A DNA stretch of 64,000 nucleotides, taken from contig NC_088300.1 in the NCBI RefSeq assembly GCF_032854445.1, positions 11,191,191 through 11,255,190 on the forward strand, written 5' to 3'. The translations under genes and the position numbers were made by a program. The notes under the pieces are model-generated. The model was not told where the DNA came from. It saw only the letters and a list, made by a program, of their open reading frames with translations, and searched no databases. The stretch comes from Liolophura sinensis. Its lineage: Eukaryota; Mollusca; Polyplacophora; Chitonida; Chitonidae. How positions within the stretch are numbered: the stretch's first letter is position 1; each line of letters begins with the position of its first letter. This document shows positions 1,484 through 63,548 of the stretch, piece after piece.

Positions 1484-4464
1484 ATGGCAGTAAACAGGTA
1501 TGATATTGTGTCATCTATTTATCCTGATTCTAATTTAGGTGTTGTATTATAGATGGGATTTGATAATGATGGTGTCAAGTGGCATTTTGAAAGGAAATAT
1601 GGATCAAGAAGGATTATATTTTTAGAGGCCTACTGAAAAGACTGCAAACGAAAACGAAAGTAAATGGCAGTGGCTACGTGTAAACTTCCAGGCACACCAG
1701 AATGCTGTTTGTGTGTTGCAATATAGGGACAGCCAAGGGCCAGCTTATGCCAGGGAATCTCAGACAAAATAGCCTACATATTTGTCCTTTTAGGCGAAAG
1801 GTCGTATATTTGGGGGCGATAAAGCGGTGCAGCTATTTTCACTGTCGAATGAGCTGAAAAGATAGGGCTGCATATATGTAGACAATTACACGCTATAGGC
1901 CTATTTCAGTAGGCTATTCGACTTTGACTATACTATATGATGGCGAGTGCAGCCAATTTGATATGCAGAGCACACCGAAAACAAAATTCTGTCAGAATAT
2001 ATTTTCTGTCTTGGGGACGGATGAGTGAAGAAAAATAAAAATTGAATTCTGTTTGTAGCAACATGTTTACTACACTAGGTGGTTTGCTAGTTATCTTCTG
2101 ATGTATATTTGCATTATGAGGCTCTTGTCGGTCAATTGTTCAACTGCCCCCCTACCCCCCCACCCCTATCCTCTTCCCACCATCTGTGTGTTTGTTTTCT
2201 CAGTATTTTGCGTGAGCCTGTCACTCAGGTATTTGCATGTGTCATCATCACCAGTTTGGTGGTTTGCGTGTGTCATTTATTCCGGGATTTGTATGTGTCA
2301 TTTTCACCAGGATTTGTGTGTCTCACCAGTTTTGTGTTTTGCGTGTGTCACTCATTCCGGAAATTGTACGTGTGGTCTTTACCAGGGATTGTGTGTGTCA
2401 CCCAGTTCTGTGGTTTCCTTGTGTCACACACTCAGGGATTTGTAGGCCCTATGTGTCATCTTCACCAGAGTTTGTGTGTGTCACCAGTTCTGTGGTTTCC
2501 TTGTGTCACACACTCAGGGATTTGTAGGCCCTATGTGTCATCTTCACCAGGGTTTGTGTGTGTCACCAGTTCTGTGGTTTTCCTTGTGTCACACACTCAG
2601 GGATTTGTAGGCCCCGTGTGTCATCTTCACCAGGGTTTGTGTGTCTCACCAGTTCCGTGTTTTGCGTGTGTCTTTCATTTCGGGATTTGTATGTGTCATC
2701 TTCACCAGGGTTTGTATGTCTCACCAGTTCTGTGGTTTGCGTATGTCACTCACGCACAAATTTGTATGTGTCATCTTCACCAGGATTTGTGTGTATCACT
2801 CATTTCGGGATTTGTATGTGTCGTCTTCACCAGGGTTTGTGTGTGTCGCCAGTTTTGTGGTTTGCTTGTGTCACTCATTCCGGGATTCGTATGTGTCATC
2901 TTCACCAGGGTTTGTGTGTCTCACCAGTTTCGTGATTTGCGTGTGTCACACACTCACGGATTTGTATGTGTCATCTTCCCCAGACGACACATACGCGTGT
3001 GTACGCGTGTCACACACTCACACTCTTCACCAGACGACAGTTACGCGTGTGTACGCGTGCCAGACTCAGGGATTGCTATGTGTCATCACCAGTTTTGTGG
3101 TTTCGGTACGTGTGCCACTCACTCAGGGGTTTGCATGTGTGGTCTTCATCGGGTTTGTGCGTTTTACCAGTTTTGTGGTTTGCGTGTGCCACTCACTCAT
3201 TGATTTGTATGTGTCGCGTTCACCAAGTTTTGTGCGTTTTACCAGTTTTGTGGTTTGTGTGTGCCACTCACTCATTGATTTGTATGTGTCGACTTTACCA
3301 AGTTTTGTGCGTTTTACCAGTTTTGTGGTTTGTGTGTGCCACTCACTCATTGATTTGTATGTGTCGTCTTTACCAGCTTTTTTGACAGTCGTATGCTTCG
3401 GCTTGAATATTGATCAATATTCTCCGTTAAAGATCATTTCGCCGGTAAGATTGTTGGTTCTTATTTTGTTTTATTTTTGTTTCCTGTACAGACAAGAGCT
3501 TCAGCGCATTCTCTCCGAATTGTCGGTGAAGATTCGAGTAGACGAGGAGGACTTGAAGAAATCAAGAAGAACAATGGAGGGTGTCACCCAGACGCTGCTT
3601 AAAGGCTTACAAATGCAACATGGCATCGTCCGTAATTTTCAATACACCGGAAGCTCATATGAAGGCACCAAGATTATACAAGCTGACGAGTTTGACGTGA
3701 TGGTTCTACTGAATGGAAATATGGAAGGAGGTCTGCAGATTGAAACTAGGACGCCAGGTTACGCAACCTTGCAACCATCGGCGGCTATATATTCAGATTT
3801 TTTGGATTGCGACCATAGGTTTTTGAGTCCGGGAAAAGTGAGGCAGCGGTTCACAGGAATGGTGCAGACACAGCTGAATAAGTTGAACTTCCCTGTACCA
3901 GTGAAACTGTTGGCTCACGGACCGGCTGTCATGCTCAGGATACAAGACAAACACCATATCGTCGAGGTGGATTTAGTCCCAACGTTTGTTGTAGATGACC
4001 AGTTCTATGTGGCCAAACCATACAAGAGTTACGCTGACAACCCAGAACGCAGTATTGGCGGGGTCTCTACCTCCCTATTCTGGCGTCAATCCACATCCCT
4101 TGACGAGAAGAGCATGTTATCAACAATTGATCGCGACCAGGGCTGCCGACGTAAATGTTTGAAGATCCTGAAGTACATGCGCACTAGGGATGCCACGCTG
4201 AGTTGCCTGACCTCATTTCATTTCAAGAACCTTGTGCTGCATCATGCCGCCGACGGGGACTGGAGGGACGCCAATATGGCGGAAAGGTTCCTGGATTTGT
4301 TGCAGAGCTTGTGTACTTGTCTAGATGGCGGTAACCTGAAGCATTACTTCATACCCCCAGTCAACTTGCTAGACGGGTTCGGTGCGAACGTCATCGCCAA
4401 CCTCAAAGGACGCGTAAGACGGCTGACGAGCAGTGACCAGGCAATTCGACAACTTCTACAGTAG
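1484..4464 (+). CDS. cGAS-like receptor / Mab-21-family nucleotidyltransferase, two coding exons (1484-1497, 3492-4464)
   Basis: Exon 1 supplies ATG GCA GTA AAC AG before gtatga. Exon 2 follows a TTTCCTGTACAG acceptor at 3492 and stays in frame to TAG at 4462-4464, giving 328 aa. The nucleotidyltransferase core is readable: GSS at residues 58-60, E-F-D at 71-73 and a third acidic residue in V-D-L at 164-166. This is the G[S/T]...[E/D]hD...hD signature that binds two metals in cGAS (EFD-type spacing). The C-terminal half has the Mab-21 pattern, including FIPPVNLL near residue 285. No HCCC zinc thumb like that of human cGAS is visible, as in many invertebrate cGLRs. In known members, ligand binding drives cyclic dinucleotide synthesis and STING signalling; that activity is inferred here. 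The intron holds a 75-bp minisatellite whose open frame artificially extends the ORF upstream. Exon 1 is the least certain part: it rests on phase, a good donor and an acceptable Kozak context. Confidence 0.82.
2230..3372 (+). repeat. 75-bp minisatellite in the intron of the cGAS-like gene
   Basis: About 15 diverged head-to-tail units, each containing TTTGTATGTGTCATCTTCAC, CAGGGTTTGTGTGTCTCACC and TGTGTCACTCATTCCGGGA-type blocks. The ~75-bp period is a multiple of three, so all three forward frames stay open over long stretches and create spurious ORFs of 364 and 607 codons. The 607-codon frame runs into the real exon at 3492. Every unit contains CACCAG motifs resembling 3' splice acceptors. 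Confidence 0.85.
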
Positions 4465-10151: not shown

Positions 10152-13100
10152 ATGTCTTGTCCAGAAGGTTACGTGGTTGGGCAGGTTGCAAACCTTCTGT
10201 CAAGGAGTGATGTTTTCAAATCAAGTGTTAAGACAGTGAGCAGAGAAAAGGCAGAGAGAAAGAAAAGAAAGTTGGAGTCCTTGTTTACAGTGTCACAGGT
10301 AAGTAACACACTCATTGTCTGTAATCTGTTTCACTAGATTTAGGTGCTGTATTTATCAAAGTGTAATAAGTAAAATCTTAATGCCCAGGCTTTTAAAATT
10401 CAGTCAAAGAGGTTTTGTCACATACAGATTGATAGAGTGATTCACCCATGATTACAATCCACTTTATTACATACTGTGATTGAGGGAAATCTGTAGACTG
10501 ATCTAAGAAATGGTCAAGTTTGACAGGCTGTCAGAATACACAGGGATTATTCTACAAGAAAAATGTAAAGAGGTGACCTGGAATGTTACACAGTCAGTCA
10601 GTCAGTCAGTCAGCCTTTCTTTCTTTCTTTCTTTTTCTTTCTTTCTTTCTTTCTTTCTTTCTTGGGCCTGATATATTGAAGTGATTTAATTCAATCACCT
10701 GGTATTCTAGCTTTGTGTTTTGTAGGTAAGATTTTGTTTTGAAAATTTATTTGAATAAGTACAGTATGTTTTTTTACCATGACAGAGCTATGGTGTAAAA
10801 AGGAGTGCCGAACAACCTGGAACAAGGTCAGAGAGAGGCTACAGCCCTCCCTCGGGGGTGGTGCATGAGTCTGTCCATGCTGAGAAAGTGCATCAGACTA
10901 CAACAACTCCACAGTAAGATTGCTGTAATCGTTGACTAGTGGTAATCTTTGTAGTAAATAGCATAAAGAAGGTAATTTAATGACTAGTGAATGAAATGCC
11001 CCACTCAGTGAGAATGTACAGCAGACTGACTAGTAAGACCCGACCCAATGTGAGCGTACAACAGACTGTCTGGTAATACCCCACTCAGTGAGAATGTACA
11101 GCAGACTGACTAGTAAGACCCCACCCGATGAGAGTGTGCAACAGACTGATTGGTAATGCCCCACTTAGTGAGTGTGTACAGCAGACTGAATGGAAATGCT
11201 TGACTCACTGAGAGTGTACATGACTAGTAATGCCCTGCACGGTGAGAATGTATAGCAGACTGACTAGTAATGTTTTATGTGCATTATCATCAGGTTGTGC
11301 TGAGAAATGAGGATTGGTAAAAACATACCATCATTCATTTTGCAGAAACGAAAAAAAGAGAAAATCCCCAGCTGACTCGAGTCTTTCAAAAGAGATGGAG
11401 AGATTAGGCCCTCTGAAGCGAATGAGACGTAATCGTCGTGACAGGACAAACGATGAGAGAACTGTGTTTGTAGGAAACCTGCCCACTACAGTTACACAAA
11501 AGGTAATGTGCTCTGAGGAGATTTGTATGCTCATTATGTGGAAAGCAACAGAGAAAGGGTATTCATGGGTAAAGTTGATGGCAAAATTGACTAATCGATG
11601 AAGGTGCAATTCCGGGTGCCTTTGTGGCCACTGTGTGAGTTCAAGCCCGGCTCATGCTGGCTTCCCTTTTGGCCGTACATGGGAAGATCTGTCAGCAGCC
11701 TGCAAAGGGTTGAGGGCTCTGTGGGTTCCCCAGGTTTCCTCCTACCATGATGTTGACGGCCGTCGTACAAGTGAAGTATTCTTCAAACACCAATCATATA
11801 AATAAAATAAATAAGAAATTTCAAATCCTGTGTCACATATCATACATAAAGTATATATGTTAAAAGATAAATGAAAGTCACAAAATAAATAAAGTGAAGA
11901 AAGTAGCCTTGAATGAATATGTTAGTTTTCTTTAGTTAAACCATGGAGCCATTTGACCATATGTTGTACAAGCAGACTTGATTCTGTTTGTCATATATTA
12001 CTAATCAGAAAATGAATGGAAATCAGTTTACTGTTATCTCTTAAGTTCTACATGTGGTTATTGTAACATAATTTGCTTTCCACAGGCCCTGAAAGGACTG
12101 TTCAAAACATTTGGTGAAATAGAAACGGTTCGCATTCGCTGTGCTGTGAGTAAATAGAGTGGAGAAAGCTCTGATGAATATGTGTAACTTTCTTACAGAT
12201 TATCAATGCATAAAATCATTATGTAGGACACATTATTTTGTGCAGAAAAACCTAAGTACATGTACTGATGTGAACCTCCTCCCACCATAACACTGGTCAG
12301 CGTTGTCTCGGTGAAATTTTCTAGAGTACAGCGTAAAACACCAACCATCAAATAAATAAATACAGTCTGAAAACAGTCTGATGTTTCTTCTGTCTTTTCA
12401 TTTTCTGTCCAAGTAACACTTAAGACAGCTTATACAAATCTCCTGGGGAAGTGTTGTTTACTGCCGCATATTTTACACAGTTTGTGTTGATTATGATCTT
12501 TTGCCATGTACGGAGTACATTTATGTGGACAAGTTTGCAATACTCAATCTTCTTGAGGACATCTGTCAACAAATAGACTTATGGCACTTTGATTTGTCTT
12601 TCAGCCAAGAGCAGACTTGAAGATACCCAAAAAGTTAGCCATAATTAAGTAAGTTGGTTCTCGTATTGCCTCGTGTTAAGGTGTATTCACTAGGACTCCC
12701 TGGCTAGTCTAACAGAAGTATACCCGAACAACTACACTTCTTAAGTAAGTTGTTCCATATATTGGCTGGTGTCAAGGTGTATTCACTATTACTCCCTGTC
12801 TAGTCTAACAGAAGTATACCCGAACAAGTATACTTCTTAAGTAAGTAAGTTGTTCCGTATATTGGCTGGTGTCAAGGTGTATTCAAGTTTACTCCCTGTC
12901 TAGTCTAACATAAGTATACGTGAACAAGTATGCTTCTTAAGTAAGCTGTTCCGTATATTGGCTGGTGTCAAGGTGTATTCACTATTACTCCGTCTAGTCT
13001 AACAGAAGTATACCCGAACAAGTATACTTCTTAAGTAAGTAAGTTGTTCCGTATATTGGCTGGTGTCAAGGTGTATTCACTATTACTCCCTGTCTAGACT

Positions 13101-16100
13101 AACAGAAGTATGCCCGAACAAGTATACTTCTTTATTAAGTAAGTTGTTTCATATATTGGCTGGTGCCAAGGTGTATTCACTAGGACTCCCTGCCTAATGA
13201 CACATAAATGTATCCAAACAGTTAGCCATAATTAAGTAAGTTGGTTCTTGTATTGTCTGGAGTTAAGACAGCACTATAGCTGCCCGTCTACATGTGTCCT
13301 GGAGAAAACTGGAATTTTATTTCAGAATATTGTTCTAATTTGTTGTTGGATGTTTACCGTGTTCCATACATAGTCTATGTTAAGTCATGTGGATTAAGCC
13401 AATTATTGCAGTGTCACATCACCTAATGTCACCTACTGATCATCCTCACCTGGATTCAACCCATGGCAGAAGTTTGCTCTTGTTTTATGTCTGGAACTTC
13501 TGTGTCCCTAGGAAGGAGTTCCATCCCGATCGCCATAATCTGGCCGCTTTTGTTGTGTTTAAGAAGTGTGAGGATGCCCAGAAGGCTACAGCATTGTAAG
13601 TTTGCGCCTGACCTCTCCTCCTTCACAGCTTTGTAATATCAAAAATATAGTGGTGGGTGACATATACCTGTATTTATTTACACTTTTTGTTCAATTCATG
13701 TCTTTTTGTGCAGTTCATTACAGTTCCAAATCTGTGTTTATATGTAAGATGATTTTTTAATATAGGCTTTTGATTAATAGTTAAGGTTAATATAAACGTA
13801 TCATACAGATCACCTATAATTGATAAGTGTTTTGTTTTAGGAATGGTGACTTGTACACAGAAGGTTTTCATATGAGGGTTGATCTGGCCAGTAAGGACAA
13901 ACAGGTGAGTCTTGACCATTGTGAGACTGGATATTAAATATGTCAACAGGTGAGTGTGACTCTTGTGAGGCAGCAATGTGAACATGTCAGCATGGAGACA
14001 AACATGTGGATGTGACTCTTGTAAGGCAAGTGTAAGCATTGCAGTGTCCTCTCGGATGTGTCAGCACTGTATGAAGACTGCGAACCATAACTGGGCAGGG
14101 TATATGTCTGGTGTCTGCTGCATGACGTTTGAGGCATCAATGTATGGAGACAGTGGACTATGACTGGGAAGGGTGTCATATCTTGTTTTCAGCATGGTGT
14201 ATACTGTGATTGTGTATTGTATCTGGTGACCATGAGTGACATTCCTGTGAGGCATCCTACCATGAGACAGTGACTGGGAAAGGTCCTATATTTTTTCTAT
14301 GCATGGTGTGTACTGTGATTTGGCATGGCGTTACAGTGGGGCATCACCTGTATGTTTTCTATGCATGGTGTGTACTGTGATTTGGCATGGCGTTACAGTG
14401 GGACATCACCTGTATTTTTTCTGTGCATGGTGTGTACTGTGGTTTGGCATGGCGTTACAGTGGGGCATCACCTATATTTTTTCTGTGCATGGTGTGTACT
14501 GTGATTTGGCATGGCGTTACAGTGGGGCATCACCTATATTTTTTCTGTGCATGGTGTATACTGTGATTTGGCATGGTGTTACAGTGGGGCATCACCTGTA
14601 TGTTTTCTATGCATGATGTGTACTGTGATTTGGCATGGCGTTACAGTGGGGCATCACCTATATTTTTTCTGTGCATGGTGTGTACTGTGATTTGGCATGG
14701 CGTTACAGTGGGGCATCACCTATATTTTTGCTATGCATGGTGTGTACTGTGATTTGGCATGGCGTTACAGTGGGGCATTACCTATATTTTTTCTGTGCAT
14801 GGTGTGTACTGTGATTTGGCATGGCGTTACAGTGGGGCATCACCTATATTTTTGCTATGCATGGTGTGTACTGTGATTTGGCATGGCGTTACAGTGGGGC
14901 ATTACCTATATTTTTTCTGTGCATGGTGTGTACTGTGATTTGGCATGGCGTTACAGTGGGGCATTGCTTTATGAAGATTGGATTTTGATTTGGCCAAATA
15001 AATGTTTGGAGATGATGGTTAAATGCCTAGAAAAGAAATAGGCTTTATCTAAACAAGAGTTTGTATTTCCTTGCAGCATGACCATCAAAGATCTGTTTTT
15101 GTAGGAAATCTTCCATTCGGTAAGTTGCACTTTACCTTTCCAGTGTAGACCTATACAGATTTTGTGGAGGGAAGTAAATTTTGTGTCGATTGCCGTTGCA
15201 CATATTCTTGGGGAAAGTAGTTTGCTTTGATTGTTGTTACACATTGTGGAGGGAAGTAAGGTTTGCTTTGATTGCCATTACACGTTATTGGGGGAAGTAA
15301 AGTTCGCTTTGATTGCCGTTACACAAGTTATTGGGGGAAGTAAAGTTTGCTTTGATTGCTGTTACACATTGTGGAGGGAAGTCAAGTTTGCTTTGATTGC
15401 CGTTACACATTATTGGGGGAAGTGAAGTTTGCTTTAATTGTTGTTACACATTGTGGAAGGAAGTAAACTTGGCTTTGATTGCTGTTACACATGTTGTGGA
15501 GGAAGTGAACTTTGCCTGGATTGTTGTTACACATGTGGAAGGAAATAAATTCTGTGTTGATTGCTGTTGCAGATGTTGTAGAGGCAGATGTCTGGCAGCA
15601 CTTCCAGGAATACGGGGAGGTTGAGAATGTACGCCTGGTGAGAGACCGTAACACCAGCATTGGCAAGGGCTTCGGCTATGTCCTTTTTAAGGTAATACAA
15701 TCCAGCATCAGCAAGGGCTTCAGCTTCATCCTATTTAAGGCAATACACTCCAGCATCAGCAAGGGCTTCAGCATCATCATGTTTAAGGTAATACAATCCA
15801 GCATCACAAGGGCTTCAGCTTCATCCTGTTTAAGGTAATACAATTCAGCATCAGCAAGATCTTCAGCTTCATCCTGTTGAAGGTAATACACTCCAGCATC
15901 AGCAAGGACTTCAGCATCATCCTGTTTAAGGTAATATACTCCAGCATCAGCAAGGGCTTTAGCCTCATCCTGTTTAAGGTAATACAATCCAGCATCAGTA
16001 AGGGCTTCAGCATGATCCTGTTCAAGGTAATACACTCCAGCATCAGTAAGGGCTTCAGCATGATCCTGTTCAAGGTAATATACTCCAGCATCAGTAAGGG

Positions 16101-17951
16101 CTTCAGCTTTATCCTGTTCAAGGTAATACACTCCAGCATCAGTAAGGGCTTCAGCTTTATCCTGTTAAAGGTAACACACTCCAGCATTAGCAAGGGCTTC
16201 AGCCTCATCCTGTTTAAGGTAATACACTCCAGCATTAGCAAGGGCTTCAGCTACATCTTGTTTAAGGTAATACATTCCAGCATCAGCAAGGGCTTCAGCC
16301 TCACCCTGTTTAAGGTAATACACTCCAGCATCAGCAAGGGCTTCAGCTTCATCCTGTTCAAGGTAATACACTCCAGCATCAGCAAGGGCTTCAGCTATGT
16401 CTTGTTAAGGTAAACACACTACAGCATCATCTACATACCAGCATAGGCAAAGGCATCAGCTAGGTTTTGCTTGAGGTAAACACACCCCAGCATCAGCAAG
16501 GGCTTCAGCAAAGTCCTGTTTAAGCTAAATACACCAGAATCAGCAAGGGCGACAACCAAGTCCTGTTTAAACACATCAGCAAGGGCTTCAGCTACGTTCT
16601 GTCTAAGGTAAACACACTGAAGCATCAGTAAAGGCTTCAGCTACATCCAGATACCGGCAGAGGCTTTGGCTAAGTCCTTGACCTCTACAGAGCATGTACA
16701 CCTCTGTTCTGGTTTGGCAGCGTCTTTGTCTGGAGGTTGGTGATAATAGCTGGATCTGCCCATATACCTGATCTCTGTTATAAATAGTTGAAATATAGCC
16801 TGCGTACAGCCTATTAAAACCAGCTAACAAATGTAAGTAAAACTATACTTGTGATCAGAAATTCTCAGTGAAATCCGTAAGATATCCAGACCACGGTTTT
16901 AGTATATATAAATTTCTAAATTCTCAGACAATATATATATTCTCATAAGCTATTAGTATTCAGCAAAATGACCATAATGTATGTGATTCTCATGGCCGGT
17001 ATACAGCGTTACAAAATAGTTGATTTTGTAAAATATTTTCTGTGAAATTTCAGATAATGCACAGCTTATTGGAGGGTTTGACTTTGTTTCTTTTTCCAGG
17101 ACAAATCATCGGTTTCTTTGACACTCAAATTCGGGAAACACCAATTTAAAGGGAGGGAACTGAGAGTTCAGCAATCAACTGCACATCCTGTGGAGACCAA
17201 TGGTGGCAAAGGTATTTCTGATATTCACTCGATGTGTAGAGGCACATGTACTTTTTGTAGGCAGGGTTAGCTATTTTCATTGTCACACTATTTATATCCA
17301 CGGAAGCCTATTAGTGTTGACTTGACACTAGATTCAACTTTGTTTACTTTTTGAAATGTTTGCTATACCTTTGTGCATGCACTCCATGAGAATCTGTATG
17401 TATCCATGATGAATATAAATATAGGTAAACCAGAAGTTTTACCAGAGAAAAAATAAAATTCACCACCTCCCACTCCCAAGTTTTTATAACTTGATACTGA
17501 TAAGACTTCTGTAGAACACACTTCCTATTTAAGTGTGGATATAAAATGAGATCTTCACAGCAAGCTTGGAATAAGATGTATTTTCACTGTTTGTTAGTCA
17601 TCGCTGGGTTTGATTTCAGGAAAGTCTGATGACCTCAGCACAGCCCAGAAACACAGGACAAGGCCCAAGTTTAAGGCCAGCAACATTACATCTCATTCAT
17701 TTCAAGGGGATAAAGCCTTCAAAAAGTCCTTCAAGAAAGGTCATTCACGCAAAGGACAGAGACCTGCGTCTGTGGGAGATGTTGGTGGGAGCAAGAAGAC
17801 ATCAAAGGGGTTTAGTGAGACACAAGGGACCAAATCCACAGGACAAAAACGTGTGAACAGAGCCGTTGAACTGAAAGGACAAGCAAAGAAAAGCACTTCA
17901 AAGAAAGGACTCCCAAAGAAAGGAAATCACAAATTTCACAAAGCAAGATAA
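10152..17951 (+). CDS. RBM34: RBM34, nucleolar RNA-binding protein with two RRMs (11 exons, 429 aa)
   Basis: Coding exons: 10152-10298, 10786-10913, 11346-11502, 12086-12145, 12605-12648, 13512-13595, 13841-13904, 15077-15119, 15573-15691, 17100-17211, 17620-17951. All junctions are GT-AG, phases join, and the total is 1290 nt (429 aa plus stop), close to vertebrate RBM34. RRM1 begins with RNP2 TVFVGNLP (exon 3) and ends with FHMRVDLA (exon 7). RRM2 has RNP2 SVFVGNLPF (exon 8), RNP1 GKGFGYVLF (exon 9) and FKGRELRVQ (exon 10). The tail is Lys/Ser-rich, as expected for a nucleolar protein. The family (yeast Nop12-like) is linked to pre-rRNA processing; the function here is by homology. Introns 2, 5, 7, 8 and 9 hold minisatellites, several made from adjacent exon edges. 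The gene is tail to tail with ARID4. Confidence 0.93.
10590..10662 (+). repeat. Microsatellites (CAGT)n and (TTTC)n
   Basis: About five CAGT/CAGTC repeats followed by a TTTC tract interrupted once, in RBM34 intron 1. Confidence 0.9.
10975..11275 (+). repeat. Minisatellite in RBM34 intron 2, ~60-bp unit
   Basis: Five diverged units of TGACTAGTAATGCCCCACTC, AGTGAGAATGTACAGCAGAC. The CAGACTGACTAGTAAGA portion loosely resembles the exon 2 end plus donor (CAGACTACAACAACTCCACA, GTAAGA), but the match is too weak to be certain. Confidence 0.75.
11600..11815 (+). mobile_element. SINE copy in RBM34 intron 3
   Basis: It shows GTGTGAGTTCAAGCCCGGCT (box B-like), CATGCTGGCTTCCC, GGTTTCCTCCTACCATGATG, CACCAATCATATAAATAAAA and the ATAAATAA tail in the order of the full-length SINE. 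The promoter box A end is missing or eroded. Confidence 0.75.
12270..12362 (+). mobile_element. SINE tail fragment in RBM34 intron 4
   Basis: AACCTCCTCCCACCATAACA, CTGGTCAGCGTTGTCTCGGT, GAAATTTTCTAGAGTACAGC, then ACCAACCATCAAATAAATAA: the 3' part of the common SINE. Confidence 0.7.
12622..13245 (+). repeat. Junction-derived minisatellite after RBM34 exon 5, ~95-105-bp unit
   Basis: Six to seven units. Each carries an echo of the exon 5 end and its donor: exon ATACCCAAAAAGTTAGCCAT + AATTAA|GTAAGTTGGTTC versus unit ATACCCGAACAAGTATACTT + CTTAAGTAAGTTGTTCC. The last copy (about 13207-13250) again reads AGTTAGCCATAATTAAGTAA, almost identical to the true junction, so near-copies of the exon end bound the array on both sides. 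Each unit keeps GTAAGT. Confidence 0.85.
13885..14010 (+). repeat. Junction-derived repeat after RBM34 exon 7
   Basis: The exon 7 end and donor (GGACAAACAG|GTGAGTCTTG) is echoed at about 13942 (GTCAACAGGTGAGTGTGACT) and 13998 (GACAAACATGTGGATGTGAC). The unit is ~50-60 bp and three copies decay away from the exon. Confidence 0.65.
14180..14965 (+). repeat. 62-bp minisatellite in RBM34 intron 7
   Basis: Twelve or more highly similar units of GCATGGTGTGTACTGTGATT, TGGCATGGCGTTACAGTGGG, GCATCACCTATATTTTTTCT. Homogeneity is high, suggesting recent expansion or an actively variable locus. Confidence 0.92.
15165..15585 (+). repeat. Acceptor-derived minisatellite before RBM34 exon 9, ~43-bp unit
   Basis: About nine units of GAAGTAAAGTTTGCTTTGAT, TGCTGTTACACATTGTGGAGG. 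The true acceptor and exon start read GATTGCTGTTGCAG|ATGTTGTAGAGGC. The adjacent units read GATTGCTGTTACACATGTTG, TGGAGGAAG. The repeat therefore looks like a backward amplification of the 3' splice site plus the first ~15 nt of exon 9. Confidence 0.8.
15653..16640 (+). repeat. 48-bp minisatellite made of the RBM34 exon 9 end (RNP1) plus 5' splice site
   Basis: The last ~39 nt of exon 9 (ACCAGCATTGGCAAGGGCTT, CGGCTATGTCCTTTTTAAG) plus GTAATAC is the founder. About 16-20 units of the form CCAGCATCAGCAAGGGCTTC, AGCTTCATCCTGTTTAAG, GTAATACACT follow in intron 9. Most keep AAG|GTAATAC, a copy of the authentic donor at 15691. The 48-bp period preserves frame, so each unit translates like RNP1 (SISKGFSFILFKVI). 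Degeneration grows after about 16410. Confidence 0.92.
16641..17099 (+). other. Remainder of RBM34 intron 9
   Basis: AT-rich sequence with no recognisable element beyond short TA tracts near 16900-16950. It ends in a polypyrimidine TTTCTTTTTCCAG acceptor for exon 10. Confidence 0.5.
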
Positions 17952-24966: not shown

Positions 24967-27900
24967 CCACATGCATATGAAAAGCAAGCCTATATTTTGA
25001 AGGATTCCATCAATGTTTGCCATTACTTGGCTTCATTACATTTCCTTTATGACACACAAAGTGACACTACAGCCTGTGTAACAGAAGGGGTGGGTGCAGC
25101 AGTTTACCTCATGTTCCAACCAGCATAATGAACCAGGTACTGGAGAGATCCATCCTCTGTACTCGCTTCCACAACCTGAAATTACACATCACACTGTCAA
25201 ATACACCTTTTAAATTTGGGCACTCTTTTGGTAATTTAATTCAGGCTAAAACATTTTCAAATATTAAAACTTGAACTTAATGTCATATACACCCAAATCA
25301 TAGAGTCAAAATAAACAAATAACAAATCTTTGTACAGCAAGTTCACATGAATACAAGAGATTTTTAAAAAATGTATTAAGCGCAATTACTCATAATTTGG
25401 CTTATTTTAAGGTGTGTTGTAATTAGGGCACCTGGAGGGTATAAAAATGTCCTTGTATTTGACTTTCTATTATACTATTTGCCACTTATACTAACTGAAA
25501 AACTGCCATAGAATGCCATCTGGGGATGTATTATGGCAGGATCACTTGTTTAAAGACGTGAAAAATGGGTGAGGAGGCAAACAAATGGAAAAAAAAAAAA
25601 GGAACAGGCATCAGGTAGACATGTAACAATGCATGACTACAACTTCACCTTTTTTATTTATTTATTTGATTGGTGTTTTACGCCGTATTCAAGAATATTT
25701 CACATATACAATGGCGGCCAACATTATTGTGGGTGGAAACTGGGCAGAGAAACCCAGGGGAAACTCACGACCACCCATACAGCAACCTCACGACCAGGTT
25801 GCTGTATGACCTTCCCACCTATGGCCGAAGAGGAAGCCAGCATGAGCTGAACCTGAACTCACAGCGGCCGCATTGGTGAGATACTCCTGGGTCATCAAGC
25901 TGCACTAGCGCGCTAACCAAATGAGCCAAGGAGGCCCCCTTTACCTTTCAGGCTTGACTGTGAGGACAAAACTTGTAAGGCAACAACAACATGCTGTCAG
26001 CTCTTTTATATGTGGAACTGAAGGTGCAAAACACAGAAGTGTAACTGACAAGATCTCCCAACAGGCCTTTGGATATTACAGCTACTACTCAGCACCAGCT
26101 TATCTCACCTTGGCTTCATAGATCTTCTGATTTCTACCTCGGCCATATTTAACCTTCAGCTTTGTTGCTGATGGTAGCACATCTCCATCATCAACCTCTG
26201 CATCTGCCTTCTCCTCCGATCTACAAAACAACAGGAAAATAGCACCCTTAAAGAAGCCAGGAAAATCATACATGACAATAAAAATCAAATTACACAAGAC
26301 AATCAACTGTCCACACCGTCTGTTGAATGCTACAACTTCAGACTTTCCCTGAGGCTTACATTTACATAATTTTAATACATCATTATGAGTAGACTAGGTA
26401 GACAACAGCGAGGTAAGTGTTGTGGCAGACTTACTAATCTACCTAATCCTTGTCCTCATGACTCGTATCTACAGCATCCAATACATCATTATGAGTAGAC
26501 TAGGTAGACAACAGCGAGGTAAGTGTTGTGGCAGACTTACTAATCTACCTAATCCTTGTCCTCATGACTCGTATATACAGCATCCAATACATCATTATGA
26601 GTAGACTACGTAGACAACAGAGAGGTAAGTGTTGTGGCAGACTTACTAATCTACCTAATCCTTGTCACCATGACTTATATCTACAGCATCCAATACATCA
26701 TTATGAGTAGACTAAGTAGATGGCAGAGTTTACTGTTGTAGCAGACAATACTCTTCTACTTCCTGTTTGTCCTCATGATTTATATCTACATCATCGAATA
26801 TACCATTATGAGTAGACTAGGTAGACAACAGAGAGATAAGTGTTGTGGCAAACTTACTCATCTACTTCCTCCTTCTCCTCAGCCTTGCTCTTCACTTCCT
26901 CCTTCTCCTTGCTCTTTTCCTTCATCTTCCTTCTTGTGTCCTTCTTTTCCTCCTTCTTCTCCTCCTTTTTCACTACTTCTATGTCTTCATCTTTCTCATC
27001 CTCCTTCCTCCCCTCATCAACACGAGGAGATTTTCGACCGGGCTAAATTGAAGCACATCACTTCAGTATATTGAGCCATATATTTTTGATAAAGCACAAG
27101 CGTTGCCTGTTAAGCGATACATTACGTGTTGGAAATGTTGTTTTAGAGGTAAACCAATCGCTCTAACACAACTGATCAAATGAAACATCCATTTCTTTTC
27201 CAGACGTTACAAGAATCTCGAGTACTGAAATCTGAATGTAGGATCCTTTAATTATAATGAGCAACAAATGAAGAGGACATTACCTGTTTCCATCAAAGCT
27301 TGTAGTAAGATGTGCTATGCTTCACTAAGCATGTGACCTAGATCAAAGTGTATTAAGGCCAGGTCAGTAAAGGATGGTTAGTGATGCGTGACGACCTCAG
27401 TTGTTCAAGCCACATCCTGGCTATATAACTACAACAGCTAATGGAACTGAGGAAAACTCACATGTTAGACAGTCTTACCGTGACACTGGCAGTAGACCCA
27501 GCTGCCGAGGCAGCAGCTCTGGCACGTTTGCGGGTGGCCTTGAGTCCCCGGTCCTCCTCGCTGGGGTCCCTCTTCACATCCTCTCTGCGTTCCTCCTCTT
27601 CACGCTGGGTGCCTTTCCTCTCCTTTGTTTCCCGCAGGTCTCTCTTTTCCCGCACCTCCTCTGATTTCTCCTCAGGTTCTGATTTGAAACTCTCTGACAG
27701 TTCCTTCTTGATGCTGTCCAATTGTCGTCGGGAATCGCTCTCTGGCTCTGCACTGGCCCGGCCTCTCTCGGGCGTGTCTTTACTGCGGCGTTCCAATTCT
27801 TTCCCCTTTACCTAACACACAGACAGACAAACATCCAGTCAAAACACAGATCTTGTGAAACAAATGATGCCATGAAGCCCACAGCTGTCATTATCTTATG

Positions 27901-48835: not shown

Positions 48836-49467
48836 AAGCTGCTTATTATGTAGTAAAAAGCGGAAATAAACTGTTTACTGTTCGTTTTAAAAAGGATTTT
48901 TCAAAACTAATTTTATTCTAAACGCTTGCCAATCAATTGCATGTCTCCCAAATTGCTCCCGGCCAAAGGCCCACTTGCTTTACTGTCCTGGTACAATCGC
49001 CCTCCCCCACCTCCCCGAGAAAGTAATATAGAGTACAGCACAGGACATTAGGAGTGTTCGTCATTCTCTTACCTGCATGCCTTTTCCACTGGACTAAGCA
49101 GCTTTCTTTTCTCTTGAAGCAGGACACCAATTTAACGCAAACCAGAAGCATTTAAGTATGAACAACAAGCGTTCACTTACATTTGTGAATTGCAAGAAAG
49201 TTTAATTGATCAATGATTTAACGAAATATAACGAAAACCAGACGCATTTACGTATGAACAACAAGCGTTTATTTACATTTGGCAATTGCATGAAAGTTTG
49301 ATTTTTTTTTTTGTTTTTTTGAAAATTGTTGAATTTATTCCCAATTTGTCATCAAATACACAAGATTTAACAATGCCCGGCTATCACAAACTTTTGAAAT
49401 CACAAAGCAGTCTTAATTAAAATAACACAGAAAAGTTGACTGCTTTGTGAATAGAATAATTAGCTGC

Positions 49468-54766: not shown

Positions 54767-55261
54767 AGGATGCCATTTATGTAGTAACATCCGGAAATCA
54801 ACTCTTCACTGTTCGTTTTAAAAAGGATTTCTCAATACCATTTTAATTCTGAACGCTTGCAAATCCACTGCATGTCTTCCCAAAAGCTCCCAGCTAAGGC
54901 CTACTGGCTTCACTGTCCCTCGTGCAATCGCTCACTGCGAAAATATTATAGAATACAGCATGGGCCTTAAGAGTGTACGTCATTCTCTAACCGCATGCCA
55001 GCTACATTGGACCTAAGCAGCTTTCTCTCTTTTTTTTTTGATGGAGAACACCAATTTAAGGGAAACCAAAAGCATTTAAGTATGAACAGTAAGCGTTTTC
55101 TTACAATTGGAAGTTGCATGCAAGTTTAATTTATCAATGATTTAAGGAAATTTAAAAAGCACAAGCATTTATCTATGACAAACAAGCGTTTGCTTACATT
55201 TGGCAATTGCATTGAAGCTTAATTGATCAATGAAAATTGTTTGCGAGTTGAAGAAAAGATT

Positions 55262-55333
55262 TTCCCATGCGGGGAATCGAACCCCGGCCGCCGCGGTGAG
55301 AGCGCGGAATCCTAAACACTAGACCACATGGAA
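55262..55333 (-). pseudogene. tRNA-Glu(CTC) copy with D-loop and acceptor changes
   Basis: The + text CCTAAACACTAGACCACATG, GAAAGG changes a D-loop G (the conserved GG) and acceptor position 2 (C to U, giving a G-U pair). The anticodon is intact. Function is doubtful. Confidence 0.6.
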
Positions 55334-55828
55334 AGGATGCCATTCATGTAGTAACATCCGGAAATCACTCTTCACTGTTCGTTTTAAAAAGGATTTCTCA
55401 ATACCATTTTAATTCTGAACGCTTGCAAATCCACTGCATGTCTTCCCAAAAGCTCCCATCTAAGGCCTACTGGCTTCACTGTCCTCGTGCAATCGCTCAC
55501 TGCGAAAAATATTATAGACTACAGCATGGGCCCTAAGAGTGTACGTCATTCTCTAACCTGCATGCCAGCTACATTGGGACTAAGCAGCTTTCTCTCTTTT
55601 TTTTTTGATGGAGAACACCAATTTAAGGGAAACCAAAAGCATTTAAGTATGAACAGTAAGCGTTTTCTTACAATTGGAAGTTGCATGCAAGTTTAATTTA
55701 TCAATGATTTAAGGAAATTTAAAAAGCACAAGCATTTATCTATGACAAACAAGCGTTTGCTTACATTTGGCAATTGCATTGAAGCTTAATTGATCAATGA
55801 AAATTGTTTGCGAGTTCAAGAAAAGATT

Positions 55829-55900
55829 TTCCCATGCGGGGAATCGAACCCCGGCCGCCGCGGTGAGAGCGCGGAATCCTAACCACTAGACCACATGGGA
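55829..55900 (-). tRNA. tRNA-Glu (anticodon CTC)
   Basis: Identical in all 72 positions to the copy at 54695-54766; intact boxes and TTTT terminator. Confidence 0.95.
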
Positions 55901-56395
55901 AGGATGCCATTCATGTAGTAACATCCGGAAATCAACTCTTCACTGTTTCGTTTTAAAAAGGATTTCTCAATACCATTTTAATTCTGAACGCTTGCAAATC
56001 CACTGCATGTCTTCCCAAAAGCTCCCATCTAAGGCCTACTGGCTTCACTGTCCTCGTGCAATCGCTCACTGCGAAAATATTATAGACTACAGCATGGGCC
56101 CTAAGAGTGTACGTCATTCTCTAACCTGCATGCCAGCTACATTGGACTAAGCAGCTTTCTCTCTTTTTTTTTTGATGGAGAACACCAATTTAAGGGAAAC
56201 CAAAAGCATTTAAGTATGAACAGTAAGCGTTTTCTTACAATTGGAAGTTGCATGCAAGTTTAATTTATCAATGATTTAAGGAAATTTAAAAGCACAAGCA
56301 TTTATCTATGACAAACAAAGCGTTTGCTTACATTTGGCAATTGCATTGAAGCTTAATTGATCAATGAAAATTGTTTGCGAGTTCAAGAAAAGATT

Positions 56396-56467
56396 TTCCC
56401 ATGCGGGGAATCGAACCCCGGCCGCCGCGGTGAGAGCGCGGAATCCTAACCACTAGACCACATGGGA
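56396..56467 (-). tRNA. tRNA-Glu (anticodon CTC)
   Basis: Intact 72-nt copy, with spacing of 567 bp from the previous unit. Confidence 0.95.
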
Positions 56468-56961
56468 AGGATGCCATTTATGTAGTAACATCCGAAATCA
56501 ACTCTTCACTGTTCGTTTTAAAAAGGATTTCTCAATACCAATTTAATTCTGAACGCTTGCAAATCCACTGCATGTCTTCCCAAAAAGCTCCCATCTAAGG
56601 CCTACTGGCTTCACTGTCCTCGTACAATCGCTCACTGCGAAAATATTATAGAATACAGCATGGGCCCTTAAGAGTGTACGTCATTCTCTAACCTGCCATG
56701 CCAGCTACATTGGACTAAGCAGCTTTCTCTCTTTTTTTTTGATGGAGAACACCAATTTAAGGGAAACCAAAAGCATTTAAGTATGAACAGTAAGCGTTTT
56801 CTTACAATTGGAAGTTGCATGCAAGTTTAATTTATCAATGATTTAAGGAAATTTAAAAAGCCACAAGCATTTATCTATGACAAACAAGCGTTGCTTACAT
56901 TGGCAATTGCATTGAAGCTTAATTGATCAATGAAAATTGTTTGCGAGTTGAAGAAAAGATT

Positions 56962-57032
56962 TTCCCATGCGGGAATCGAACCCCGGCCGCCGCGGTGAGA
57001 GCGCGGAATCCTAACCACTAGACCACATGGGA
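56962..57032 (-). pseudogene. tRNA-Glu(CTC) with 1-nt T-stem deletion
   Basis: The + text CATGCGGGAATCG lacks one G relative to CATGCGGGGAATCG, removing a T-stem base and weakening box B context. The rest is intact. The same unit carries other 1-bp losses (AAGCGTTGCTTACATTGGC), so assembly error is possible. Confidence 0.6.
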
Positions 57033-57527
57033 AGGATGCCATTTATGTAGTAACATCCGGAAATCAACTCTTCACTGTTCGTTTTAAAAAGGATTTCTCA
57101 ATACCATTTTAATTCTGAACGCTTGCAAATCCACTGCATGTCTTCCCAAAAGCTCTCAGCTAAGGCCTACTGGCTTCACTGTCCTCGTGCAATCGCTCAG
57201 TGCGAAAATATTATAGACTACAGCATGGGCCCTTAAGAGTGTACGTCATTCGTCTAACCTGCATGCCAGCTACATTGGACTAAGCAGCTTTCTCTCTTTT
57301 TTTTTTGATGGAGAACACCAATTTAAGGGAAACCAAAAGCATTTAAGTATAACAGTAAGCGTTTTCTTACAATTGGAAGTTGCATGCAAGTTTAATTTAT
57401 CAATGATTTAAGGAAATTTAAAAAGCACAAGCATTTATCTATGACAAACAAGCGTTTGCTTACATTTGGCAATTGCATTGAAGCTTAATTGATCAATGAA
57501 AATTGTTTGCGAGTTCAAGAAAAGATT

Positions 57528-57599
57528 TTCCCATGCGGGGAATCGAACCCCGGCCGCCGCGGTGAGAGCGCGGAATCCTAACCACTAGACCACATGGGA
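57528..57599 (-). tRNA. tRNA-Glu (anticodon CTC)
   Basis: Intact 72-nt copy with terminator. Confidence 0.95.
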
Positions 57600-58094
57600 A
57601 GGATGCCATTTATGTAGTAACATCCGGAAATCAACTCTTCACTGTTCGTTTTAAAAAGGATTTCTCAATACCATTTTAATTCTGAACGCTTGCAAATCCA
57701 CTGCATGTCTTCCCAAAAGCTCCCAGCTAAGGCCTACTGGCTTCACTGTCCTCGTGCAATCGCTCACTGCGAAAATATTATAGACTACAGCATGGGCCCT
57801 TAAGAGTGTACGTCATTCTCTAACCTGCATGCCAGCTACATTGGACTAAGCAGCTTTCCCTCTTTTTTTTTTGATGGAGAACACCAATTTAAGGGAAACC
57901 AAAAGCATTTAAGTATGAACAGTAAGCGTTTTCTTACAATTGGAAGTTGCATGCAAGTTTAATTTATCAATGATTTAAGGAAATTTAAAAAGCACAAGCA
58001 TTTATCTATGACAAACAAGCGTTTGCTTACATTTGGCAATTGCATTGAAGCTTAATTGATCAATGAAAATTGTTTGCGAGTTGAAGAAAAGATT

Positions 58095-58166
58095 TTCCCA
58101 TGCGGGGAATCGAACCCCGGCCGCCGCGGTGAGAGCGCGGAATCCTAACCACTAGACCACATGGGA
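58095..58166 (-). tRNA. tRNA-Glu (anticodon CTC)
   Basis: Intact 72-nt copy. The following unit is shortened and lacks a tRNA (see 58584). Confidence 0.95.
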
Positions 58167-58559
58167 AGGATGCCATTTATGTAGTAACATCCGGAAATCA
58201 ACTCTTCACTGTTCGTTTTAAAAAGGATTTCTCAATACCATTTTAATTCTGAACGCTTGCAAATCCACTGCATGTCTTCCCAAAAGCTCCCAGCTAAGGC
58301 CTACTGGCTTCACTGTCCTCGTACAATCGCTCACTGCGAAAATATTATAGAATACAGCATGGGCCCTTAAGAGTGTACGTCATTCTCTAACCTGCATGCC
58401 AGCTACATTGGACTAAGCAGCTTTCTCTCTTTTTTTTTGATGGAGAACACCAATTTAAGGGAAACCAAAAGCATTTAAGTATGAACAGTAAGCGTTTTCT
58501 TACAATTGGAAGTTGCATGCAAGTTTAATTTATCAATGATTTAAGGAAATTTAAAAAGC

Positions 58560-58600
58560 ACAAGCATTTATCTATGACAAACATTTCTCAATACCATTTT
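58560..58600 (-). other. Deletion junction: array unit lacking its tRNA gene
   Basis: The text runs TCTATGACAAACATTTCTCA, fusing the spacer sub-repeat directly to the post-tRNA ATTTCTCAATACC segment. The distance between flanking tRNAs is 923 bp, about 210 bp short of two units, and the missing part contains the whole tRNA. Confidence 0.85.
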
Positions 58601-59017
58601 AATTCTGAACGCTTGCAAATCCACTGCATGTCTTCCCAAAAGCTCCCAGCTAAGGCCTACTGGCTTCACTGTCCTCGTGCAATCGCTCACTGCGAAAATA
58701 TTATAGACTACAGCATGGGCCCTTAAGAGTGTACGTCATTCTCTAACCTGCATGCCAGCTACATTGGACTAAGCAGCTTTCCCTCTTTTTTTTTTGATGG
58801 AGAACACCAATTTAAGGGAAACCAAAAGCATTTAAGTATGAACAGTAAGCGTTTTCTTACAATTGGAAGTTGCATGCAAGTTTAATTTATCAATGATTTA
58901 AGGAAATTTAAAAAGCACAAGCATTTATCTATGACAAACAAGCGTTTGCTTACATTTGGCAATTGCATTGAAGCTTAATTGATCAATGAAAATTGTTTGC
59001 GAGTTGAAGAAAAGATT

Positions 59018-59089
59018 TTCCCATGCGGGGAATCGAACCCCGGCCGCCGCGGTGAGAGCGCGGAATCCTAACCACTAGACCACATGGGA
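59018..59089 (-). tRNA. tRNA-Glu (anticodon CTC)
   Basis: Intact 72-nt copy with terminator. Confidence 0.95.
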
Positions 59090-59584
59090 AGGATGCCATT
59101 TATGTAGTAACATCCGGAAATCAACTCTTCACTGTTCGTTTTAAAAAGGATTTCTCAATACCATTTTAATTCTGAACGCTTGCAAATCCACTGCATGTCT
59201 TCCCAAAAGCTCTCAGCTAAGGCCTACTGGCTTCACTGTCCTCGTGCAATCGCTCAGTGCGAAAATATTATAGACTACAGCATGGGCCCTTAAGAGTGTA
59301 CGTCATTCTCTAACCTGCATGCCAGCTACATTGGACTAAGCAGCTTTCTCTCTTTTTTTTTTGATGGAGAACACCAATTTAAGGGAAACCAAAAGCATTT
59401 AAGTATGAACAGTAAGCGTTTTCTTACAATTGGAAGTTGCATGCAAGTTTAATTTATCAATGATTTAAGGAAATTTAAAAAGCACAAGCATTTATCTATG
59501 ACAAACAAGCGTTTGCTTACATTTGGCAATTGCATTGAAGCTTAATTGATCAATGAAAATTGTTTGCGAGTTCAAGAAAAGATT

Positions 59585-59656
59585 TTCCCATGCGGGGAAT
59601 CGAACCCCGGCCGCCGCGGTGAGAGCGCGGAATCCTAACCACTAGACCACATGGGA
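59585..59656 (-). tRNA. tRNA-Glu (anticodon CTC)
   Basis: Intact 72-nt copy with terminator. Confidence 0.95.
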
Positions 59657-60150
59657 AGGATGCCATTTATGTAGTAACATCCGGAAATCAACTCTTCACT
59701 GTTCGTTTTAAAAAGGATTTCTCAATACCATTTTAATTCTGAACGCTTGCAAATCCACTGCATGTCTTCCCAAAAGCTCCCAGCTAAGGCCTACTGGCTT
59801 CACTGTCCTCGTGCAATCGCTCACTGCGAAAATATTATAGACTACAGCATGGGCCCTTAAGAGTGTACGTCATTCTCTAACCTGCATGCCAGCTACATTG
59901 GACTAAGCAGCTTTCTCTCTTTTTTTTTGATGGAGAACACCAATTTAAGGGAAATCAAAAGCATTTAAGTATGAACAGTAAGCGTTTTCTTACAATTGGA
60001 AGTTGCATGCAAGTTTAATTTGTCAATGATTTAAGGAAATTTAAAAAGCACAAGCATTTATCTATGACAAACAAGCGTTTGCTTACATTTGGCAATTGCA
60101 TTGAAGCTTAATTGATCAATGAAAATTGTTTGAGAGTTGAAGAAAAGATT

Positions 60151-60222
60151 TTCCCATGCGGGGAATCGAACCCCGGCCGCCGCGGTGAGAGCGCGGAATC
60201 CTAACCACTAGACCACATGGGA
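60151..60222 (-). tRNA. tRNA-Glu (anticodon CTC)
   Basis: Intact 72-nt copy. The adjacent spacer has a private GAGAG change (TGAGAGTTGAAG), useful as a unit marker. Confidence 0.95.
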
Positions 60223-60716
60223 AGGATGCCATTTATGTAGTAACATCCGGAAATCAACTCTTCACTGTTCGTTTTAAAAAGGATTTCTCAATACCATTTT
60301 AATTCTGAACGCTTGCAAATCCACTGCATGTCTTCCCAAAAGCTCCCAGCTAAGGCCTACTGGCTTCACTGTCCTCGTGCAATCGCTCACTGCGAAAATA
60401 TTATAGAATACAGCATGGGCCCTTAAGAGTGTACGTCATTCTCTAACCTGCATGCCAGCTACATTGGACTAAGCAGCTTTCTCTCTTTTTTTTTGATGGA
60501 GAACACCAATTTAAGGGAAACCAAAAGCATTTAAGTATGAACAGTAAGCGTTTTCTTACAATTGGAAGTTGCATGCAAGTTTAATTTATCAATGATTTAA
60601 GGAAATTTAAAAAGCACAAGCATTTATCTATGACAAACAAGCGTTTGCTTACATTTGGCAATTGCATTGAAGCTTAATTGATCAATGAAAATTGTTTGCG
60701 AGTTGAAGAAAAGATT

Positions 60717-60788
60717 TTCCCATTCGGGGAATCGAACCCCGGCCGCCGCGGTGAGAGCGCGGAATCCTAACCACTAGACCACATGGGA
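60717..60788 (-). tRNA. tRNA-Glu (anticodon CTC), one acceptor mismatch
   Basis: The + text CCCATTCGGGG replaces CCCATGCGGGG, changing the base that closes acceptor pair 7-66 (G-A mismatch). Otherwise identical; could still fold. Confidence 0.75.
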
Positions 60789-61284
60789 AGGATGCCATTT
60801 ATGTAGTAACATCCGGAAATCAACTCTTCACTGTTCGTTTTAAAAAGGATTTCTCAATACCATTTTAATTCTGAACGCTTGCAAATCCACTGCATGTCTT
60901 CCCAAAAGCTCCCAGCTAAGGCCTACTGGCTTCACTGTCCTCGTGCAATCGCTCACTGCGAAAATATTATAGACTACAGCATGGGCCCTTAAGAGTGTAC
61001 GTCATTCTCTAACCTGCATGCCAGCTACATTGGACTAAGCAGCTTTCTCTCTCTTTTTTTTTGATGGAGAACACCAATTTAAGGGAAACCAAAAGCATTT
61101 AAGTATGAACAGTAAGCGTTTTCTTACAATTGGAAGTTGCATGCAAGTTTAATTTATCAATGATTTAAGGAAATTTAAAAAGCACAAGCATTTATCTATG
61201 ACAAACAAGCGTTTGCTTACATTTGGCAATTGCATTGAAGCTTAATTGATCAATGAAAATTGTTTGCGAGTTGAAGAAAAGATT

Positions 61285-61356
61285 TTCCCATGCGGGGAAT
61301 CGAACCCCGGCCGCCGCGGTGAGAGCGCGGAATCCTAACCACTAGACCACATGGGA
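61285..61356 (-). tRNA. tRNA-Glu (anticodon CTC)
   Basis: Intact 72-nt copy with terminator. Confidence 0.95.
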
Positions 61357-61850
61357 AGGATGCCATTTATGTAGTAACATCCGGAAATCAACTCTTCACT
61401 GTTCGTTTTAAAAAGGATTTCTCAATACCATTTTAATTCTGAACGCTTGCAAATCCACTGCATGTCTTCCCAAAAGCTCTCAGCTAAGGCCTACTGGCTT
61501 CACTGTCCTCGTGCAATCGCTCACTGCGAAAATATTATAGAATACAGCATGGGCCCTTAAGAGTGTACGTCATTCTCTAACCTGCATGCCAGCTACATTG
61601 GACTAAGCAGCTTTCTCTCTTTTTTTTTGATGAAGAACACCAATTTAAGGGTAACCAAAAGCATTTAAGTATGAACAGTAAGCGTTTTCTTACAATTGGA
61701 AGTTGCATGCAAGTTTAATTTATCAATGATTTAAGGAAATTTAAAAAGCACAAGCATTTATCTATGACAAACAAGCGTTTGCTTACATTTGGCAATTGCA
61801 TTGAAGCTTAATTGATCAATGAAAATTGTTTGCGAGTTGAAGAAAAGATT

Positions 61851-61922
61851 TTCCCATGCGGGGAATCGAACCCCGGCCGCCGCGGTGAGAGCGCGGAATC
61901 CTAACCACTAGACCACATGGGA
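61851..61922 (-). tRNA. tRNA-Glu (anticodon CTC)
   Basis: Intact 72-nt copy with terminator. Confidence 0.95.
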
Positions 61923-62417
61923 AGGATGCCATTCATGTAGTAACATCCGGAAATCAACTCTTCACTGTTCGTTTTAAAAAGGATTTCTCAATACCATTTG
62001 AATTCTGAACGCTTGCAAATCCACTGCATGTCTTCCCAAAAGCTCCCAGCTAAGGCCTACTGGCTTCACTGTCCTCGTGCAATCGCTCACTGCGAAAATA
62101 TTATAGACTACAGCATGGGCCCTAAGAGTGTACGTCATTCTCTAACCTGCATGCCAGCTACATTGGACTAAGCAGCTTTCTCTCTTTTTTTTTTTGATGG
62201 AGAACACCAATTTAAGGGAAACCAAAAGCATTTAAGTATGAACAGTAAGCGTTTTCTTACAATTGGAAGTTGCATGCAAGTTTAATTTATCAATGATTTA
62301 AGGAAATTTAAAAAGCACAAGCATTTATCTATGACAAACAAGCGTTTGCTTACATTTGGCAATTGCATTGAAGCTTAATTGATCAATGAAAATTGTTTGC
62401 GAGTTGAAGAAAAGATT

Positions 62418-62489
62418 TTCCCATGCGGGGAATCGAACCCCGGCCGCCGCGGTGAGAGCGCGGAATCCTAACCACTAGACCACATGGGA
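62418..62489 (-). tRNA. tRNA-Glu (anticodon CTC)
   Basis: Intact 72-nt copy with terminator. Confidence 0.95.
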
Positions 62490-62982
62490 AGGATGCCATT
62501 TATGTAGTAACATCCGGAAATCAACTCTTCACTGTTCGTTTTAAAACGGATTTCTCAATACCATTTTAATTCTGAACGCTTGCAAATCCACTGCATGTCT
62601 TCCCAAAAGCTCCCGTCTAAGGCCTACTGGCTTCACTGTCCTCGTACAATCGCTCACTGCGAAAATATTATAGAATACAGCATGGGCCCTAAAGAGTGTA
62701 CGTCATTCTCTAACCGCATGCCAGCTACATTGGACTAAGCAGCTTTCTCTCTTTTTTTTTGATGGAGAACACCAATTTAAGGGTAACCAAAAGCATTTAA
62801 GTATGAACAGTAAGCGTTTTCTTACAATTGGAAGTTGCATGCAAGTTTAATTTATCAATGATTTAAGGAAATTTAAAAAGCACAAGCATTTATCTATGAC
62901 AAACAAGCGTTTGCTTACATTTGGCAATTGCATTGAAGCTTAATTGATCAATGAAAATTGTTTGCGAGTTCAAGAAAAGATT

Positions 62983-63054
62983 TTCCCATGCGGGGAATCG
63001 AACCCCGGCCGCCGCGGTGAGAGCGCGGAATCCTAACCACTAGACCACATGGGA
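62983..63054 (-). tRNA. tRNA-Glu (anticodon CTC)
   Basis: Intact 72-nt copy with terminator. Confidence 0.95.
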
Positions 63055-63548
63055 AGGATGCCATTCATGTAGTAACATCCGGAAATCAACTCTTCACTGT
63101 TCGTTTTAAAAAGGATTTCTCAATACCATTTTAATTCTGAACGCTTGCAAATCCACTGCATGTCTTCCCAAAAGCTCCCATCTAAGGCCTACTGGCTTCA
63201 CTGTCCTCGTGCAATCGCTCACTGCGAAAATATTATAGACTACAGCATGGGCCCTAAGAGTGTACGTCATTCTCTAACCTGCATGCTAGCTACATTGGAC
63301 TAAGCAGCTTTCTCTCTTTTTTTTTTGATGGAGAACACCAATTTAAGGGAAACCAAAAGCATTTAAGTATGAACAGTAAGCGTTTTCTTACAATTGGAAG
63401 TTGCATGCAAGTTTAATTTATCAATGATTTAAGGAAATTTAAAAAGCACAAGCATTTATCTATGACAAACAAGCGTTTGCTTACATTTGGCAATTGCATT
63501 GAAGCTTAATTGATCAATGAAAATTGTTTGCGAGTTCAAGAAAAGATT

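Follow-up and report, generated by a model that had tools for sequence, protein, structure and literature searches.

The RBM34 gene of the chiton (mollusc) Liolophura sinensis carries in its intron 9 an array of about 20 tandem copies (15704-16667), each made up of the last 36 nt of exon 9 and the splice donor that follows them. This raises the question of how a gene came to hold so many copies of one of its own splice sites, and what these copies mean for its transcripts and protein. Here, we address this question in a window of 64,000 nucleotides (the whole stretch of DNA analysed, to which all coordinates refer unless a locus is named) and in other genes of the same genome.

The RBM34 gene and its exon 9 array

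The window comes from an assembly deposited as L. japonica, comprising 609 Mb in 632 contigs and built from PacBio HiFi reads with a mean length of 8,347 bp and a coverage of 14x (PMC11068029); the species name was later amended from Liolophura japonica to L. sinensis (PMC12441733). As a side observation, the mitochondrial gene order in this assembly (ND3-ND2-COX1-COX2-ATP8-ATP6) agrees with that of molluscs, and a 108-kb contig (C99, L002-L009), in which COX1 is present seven times at a spacing of about 15.5 kb, resembles a concatemer of the circular mitochondrial genome produced in assembly.

The gene was modelled with ten exons (10152-17211) that have consistent phases and canonical AG/GT ends, and at least one further exon lies downstream. 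Pfam RRM_1 matches the product twice, with the best match at residues 235-304, and the best PDB match is Nucleolar protein 12 (Nop12; E 4.8e-30), the yeast homologue of RBM34. Two RRMs and a Nop12-like sequence, the marks by which RBM34/Nop12 was to be recognised, are both present, and together with the ten-exon model they bear out the original prediction, made from the sequence without database searches, that the repeated exon is exon 9 of RBM34. This exon ends in phase 0, and the array that follows it was found at one locus only in a search of the whole assembly.

Table 1. Exons and boundary-spanning arrays of RBM34, in window coordinates
Feature	Position	Strand	Description	Basis
Exon 5 (12605-12648) and third array	12605..13267	+	~100-bp units; donor-spanning	TRF, alignment
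Second array, most of intron 8	15162..15572	+	41-bp units; spans exon-9 acceptor	TRF, alignment
RBM34 exon 9	15573..15691	+	119 nt; most of RRM2 up to RNP1 (KGFGYVLF)	gene model, Pfam, PDB
Founder copy (unit 0)	15656..15703	+	last 36 nt of exon 9 and first 12 nt of intron 9; authentic donor 15691|15692	
14 regular 48-bp units	15704..16374	+	12 of them with the exact authentic donor 9-mer	TRF, wrap-around alignment
Decayed distal units	16375..16667	+	GTAAAC-type donors; exon-like diagnostic sites TATGTC, TACGTT, GGCTTTGGCTA	
RBM34 exon 10	17100..17211	+	pairs as acceptor with the exon-9 donor; encodes the remainder of RRM2	gene model

TRF places the array at 15654-16429 with a period of 48, 16.2 copies and 89% matches, while wrap-around alignment resolves 15 regular units at 15656-16374, including the copy within the exon, followed by decayed units up to about 16667. 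Among the regular units, the first after the exon has a GC donor and the third (15800-15846) has a 1-nt deletion. The consensus unit is identical to the end of exon 9 plus its donor at 40 of 48 positions, and the exon-9 donor region aligned against its own intron reaches a local-alignment score of 92, compared with a maximum of 25 among 300 shuffles. The proposed composition of the unit, the RNP1 end of exon 9 together with the donor, has thus passed the comparison with chance that had been set as its test beforehand. As had also been predicted, most units keep the donor, GT being retained in 17 of 20. The exact donor 9-mer AAGGTAATA (AAG|GTAATA), formed by the last bases of exon 9 and its donor, occurs 13 times in exon 9 and intron 9, the authentic one included, and had no occurrence in the remainder of the window. 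Letters diagnostic of the exon are found mainly in the distal units and have been lost from the middle ones; because the distal units are exon-like and the middle ones derived, the exon appears to be the source and the middle of the array to have been homogenised.

Arrays at other exon boundaries

Two further boundaries of RBM34 are crossed by arrays. The exon-9 acceptor (TTGCAG|ATGTTGTAGAGG) matches one 41-bp unit of the preceding array at 27 of 31 positions, with the AG gone from nearly all copies, so that exon 9 is flanked by an acceptor-spanning array on one side and a donor-spanning array on the other. At exon 5, the terminal copy of the array (13211-13258) matches the exon end and donor at 44 of 48 positions. 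Arrays at 10995-11270 and 14285-14964 were ruled out as cases of this kind since their match to the boundary was not significant.

For comparison, two unrelated families were picked before their introns were inspected, namely CCT/TCP1, with 28 spliced exon matches, and kinesin, with 33 exon matches spread over 20 stretches. Arrays crossed 8 of the approximately 122 boundaries sampled (~7%), a total that is approximate as some domain matches end short of the exon end. Four belong to CCT genes, named by reading translated motifs (two donors and one acceptor in CCT3, one donor in CCT5), with the overlap into the exon being short for the acceptor array at locus L055, and four to kinesins (donors at L078 and L085, acceptors at L073 and L074). 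The arrangement, which the original prediction knew from no description of RBM34, is accordingly not special to this gene, and it is of a kind already described from amphioxus. An acceptor array at L071 and a donor array at L055 end before the splice site and were not counted. The latter (L055 1640-2810, reverse complement of the locus) is a 27-bp array of 43 copies that fills the intron after a CCT3 exon and begins just inside the donor, which it excludes; the same exon has the acceptor-spanning array upstream.

Unit lengths across the boundary arrays range from 27 to 109 bp, and lengths such as 34, 64, 73 and 109 bp give no support to a preference for multiples of three. Neither is a targeting of boundaries supported, as arrays occupy 13.8% of bases in the sampled CCT and kinesin loci against the ~7% of boundaries crossed; boundary crossing is no commoner than random placement would give, and no special targeting is needed. 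Loss of the AG as a requirement for tolerated acceptor copies holds for RBM34 exon 9 and fails for L055, L073 and L074. A survey of the RRM family was of little use, as many top matches were multi-copy short open reading frames or had no nearby introns. These include many near-identical one-RRM open reading frames of 175-194 aa on most chromosomes (L018-L038, e.g. L018, L019 and L020), as if retroposition or a mobile element had scattered an A1CF/SYNCRIP-type gene.

The window also holds other repeats. At 55063-63520, TRF finds a motif of ~171 bp repeated at intervals of ~567 bp, which suggests a large satellite whose period exceeds the limit of TRF, and repeats of 93-96 bp at 49129 and 54484 are related to it. 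A 75-bp minisatellite (2248-3375) lies just upstream of an exon (about 3480-4464) whose appearance by eye suggests a cGAS/Mab-21-like receptor, and a 106-bp array at 26374-26881, whose unit includes AGAGAGGTAAGTG, a strong donor-like site, adjoins a probable minus-strand gene.

Origin of the array and its effect on the reading frame

When the donors are joined to exon 10, the frame remains open for donors 0, 1 and 2 and meets a stop for donors 3-15. We infer from these sequences that the exon 9 array is probably a neutral minisatellite whose founder unit spans the exon-intron boundary (a 'mirage') and in which the first donor is used, and that it most likely leaves the RBM34 protein unchanged. 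A 48-bp segment across the exon 9/intron 9 junction would have been duplicated in tandem, a founding event that may have been tolerated in that the gene remains intact through the copy adjoining the main part of exon 9. Since growth was directed into the intron, the exon itself would not have been disrupted, leaving the array free to expand through slippage or unequal exchange. The middle units would then have been homogenised to a derived sequence, with old exon-like copies persisting at the far edge. Exon definition would favour the first donor, closing the normal 119-nt exon, since later donors would give exons of 167 to >800 nt, and their occasional use would, except at two sites, end in a premature stop followed by decay. 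Ordinary growth of a minisatellite in a minisatellite-rich genome would be the simplest account of the array. The exon-like edge and derived middle, as in the amphioxus globin mirages, point to this neutral origin, as do the frameshift in unit 3, the stops predicted for donors 3-15 and the presence of arrays at two other RBM34, four CCT and four kinesin boundaries with unit lengths that are not confined to multiples of three. Two features would speak against it, namely a lean of the changes between units towards third codon positions and a donor hexamer that is less variable than other positions of the unit, in small numbers.

Alternatively, the ladder of donors could tune RBM34 output, with donors 3-15 leading to premature stops and loss of transcript, so that array length would set expression. 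This would fit the 12 decoy donors that share the authentic 9-mer exactly and in nearly every case yield stops before the downstream exons, and the minisatellite donors of human IFI6 that can be used, according to PMC4526556, citing Turri 1995. We regard such tuning as unlikely, as the same kind of array is found at unrelated housekeeping exons and the authentic donor is the first among equals and closes an exon of normal length.

It had also been predicted that distal donors would add in-frame RNP1-like repeats to RRM2. The unit of 48 nt is a multiple of three, and donors 1 and 2 would add 16 and 32 residues to an uninterrupted frame; this part of the prediction stands, and donors 3-15 instead give a premature stop. 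Because the deletion in unit 3 shifts the frame, additions could come at most from donors 1 and 2, of which donor 1 is GC, and the insertion would sit between beta3 and alpha2 of RRM2. The predicted open frame in the units does exist (15787-16413), but it is not continuous with the frame of exon 9, which when read into the array stops at 15838, and it is weak evidence of coding because two reverse-strand frames of the consensus unit are equally open. Substitutions between units fall at 18 third positions versus 10 and 5 at the others (18/33 raw), but many of them go back to a common ancestor of several units. When these are merged by hand into 18 separate events, synonymous changes number 7 (P 0.027, 0.084 and 0.185 at transition weights of 1, 2 and 4). 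This synonymous excess may reflect a weak coding constraint on the units. Considering also the other arrays with units of 34, 64, 73 and 109 bp, proteins with such repeats in RRM2 seem very improbable.

An assembly artefact, named in the original prediction as a possible refutation, is less probable still: tandem repeats easily collapse or expand in assembly and the coverage was 14x, but HiFi reads average 8.3 kb against an array of about 1 kb at a single locus, and the units carry distinct variants. Tandem duplication of exon 9 into alternative exons is refuted by content and virtually excluded, as the copies do hold coding sequence and a GT but are limited to the final 36 of the 119 nt, without the upstream acceptor region.

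Comparison with known systems

Boundary-spanning minisatellites have been named mirages in the amphioxus genes Adh3, troponin C (TnC), the globins BflGb6 and BflGb9, and PGBD5, where they reportedly leave splicing undisturbed (PMC3087553, PMC3902484); they are known from a handful of genes and have been suggested to be possibly general in cephalochordates. No report of such minisatellites in molluscs was found in a literature search that mostly covered papers available without subscription, and the kind of array is already known while the mollusc host and the high frequency are apparently new. Their frequency in a mollusc suggests that mirages may arise in any genome with abundant intronic minisatellites. 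They could supply material from which new introns or displaced exon ends arise, and each is a natural experiment in how the spliceosome settles on a single donor when a dozen identical 9-mers are on offer; as five-tissue RNA-seq of this Liolophura species (SAMN35319765 and following) is already public, this choice is directly testable. If several per cent of chiton exon boundaries carry them, identical donors or acceptors might form ladders in thousands of genes, with low-level use of some ladders, and splice-site choice and the sliding of intron boundaries might be unusually fluid in this lineage, an extrapolation we offer tentatively.

In human genes of segmental duplications, internal tandem repeats are likewise minisatellites at exon-intron boundaries that affect gene structure and possibly form introns, but they belong to recent human paralogues, are usually exonic and are supported by transcripts (PMC2812944). 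In human IFI6 (6-16/G1P3), a minisatellite gives several donors that are used to produce three mRNAs, according to PMC4526556, which cites Turri 1995. There as in RBM34, a tandem repeat at the 3' end of an exon offers several donors; in contrast to the used donors of IFI6, those of RBM34 are candidate sites, most of which would break the frame and two of which would keep it.

The closest likeness is to the amphioxus mirages, which share with the chiton arrays a minisatellite-like structure spanning the boundary at donor or acceptor, with the AG or GT copied along. The RBM34 unit extends across the exon-intron boundary of a genuine gene, many but not all of its copies keep the GT, and its edge units have escaped homogenisation while the middle has not, as in amphioxus. 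The chiton arrays differ in copy number, with about 20 copies in RBM34 and as many as ~30 in one kinesin compared with 2-7 in the amphioxus globin and PGBD5 genes, in their mollusc host, in that two of them flank a single exon, and in being known here from the genome sequence.
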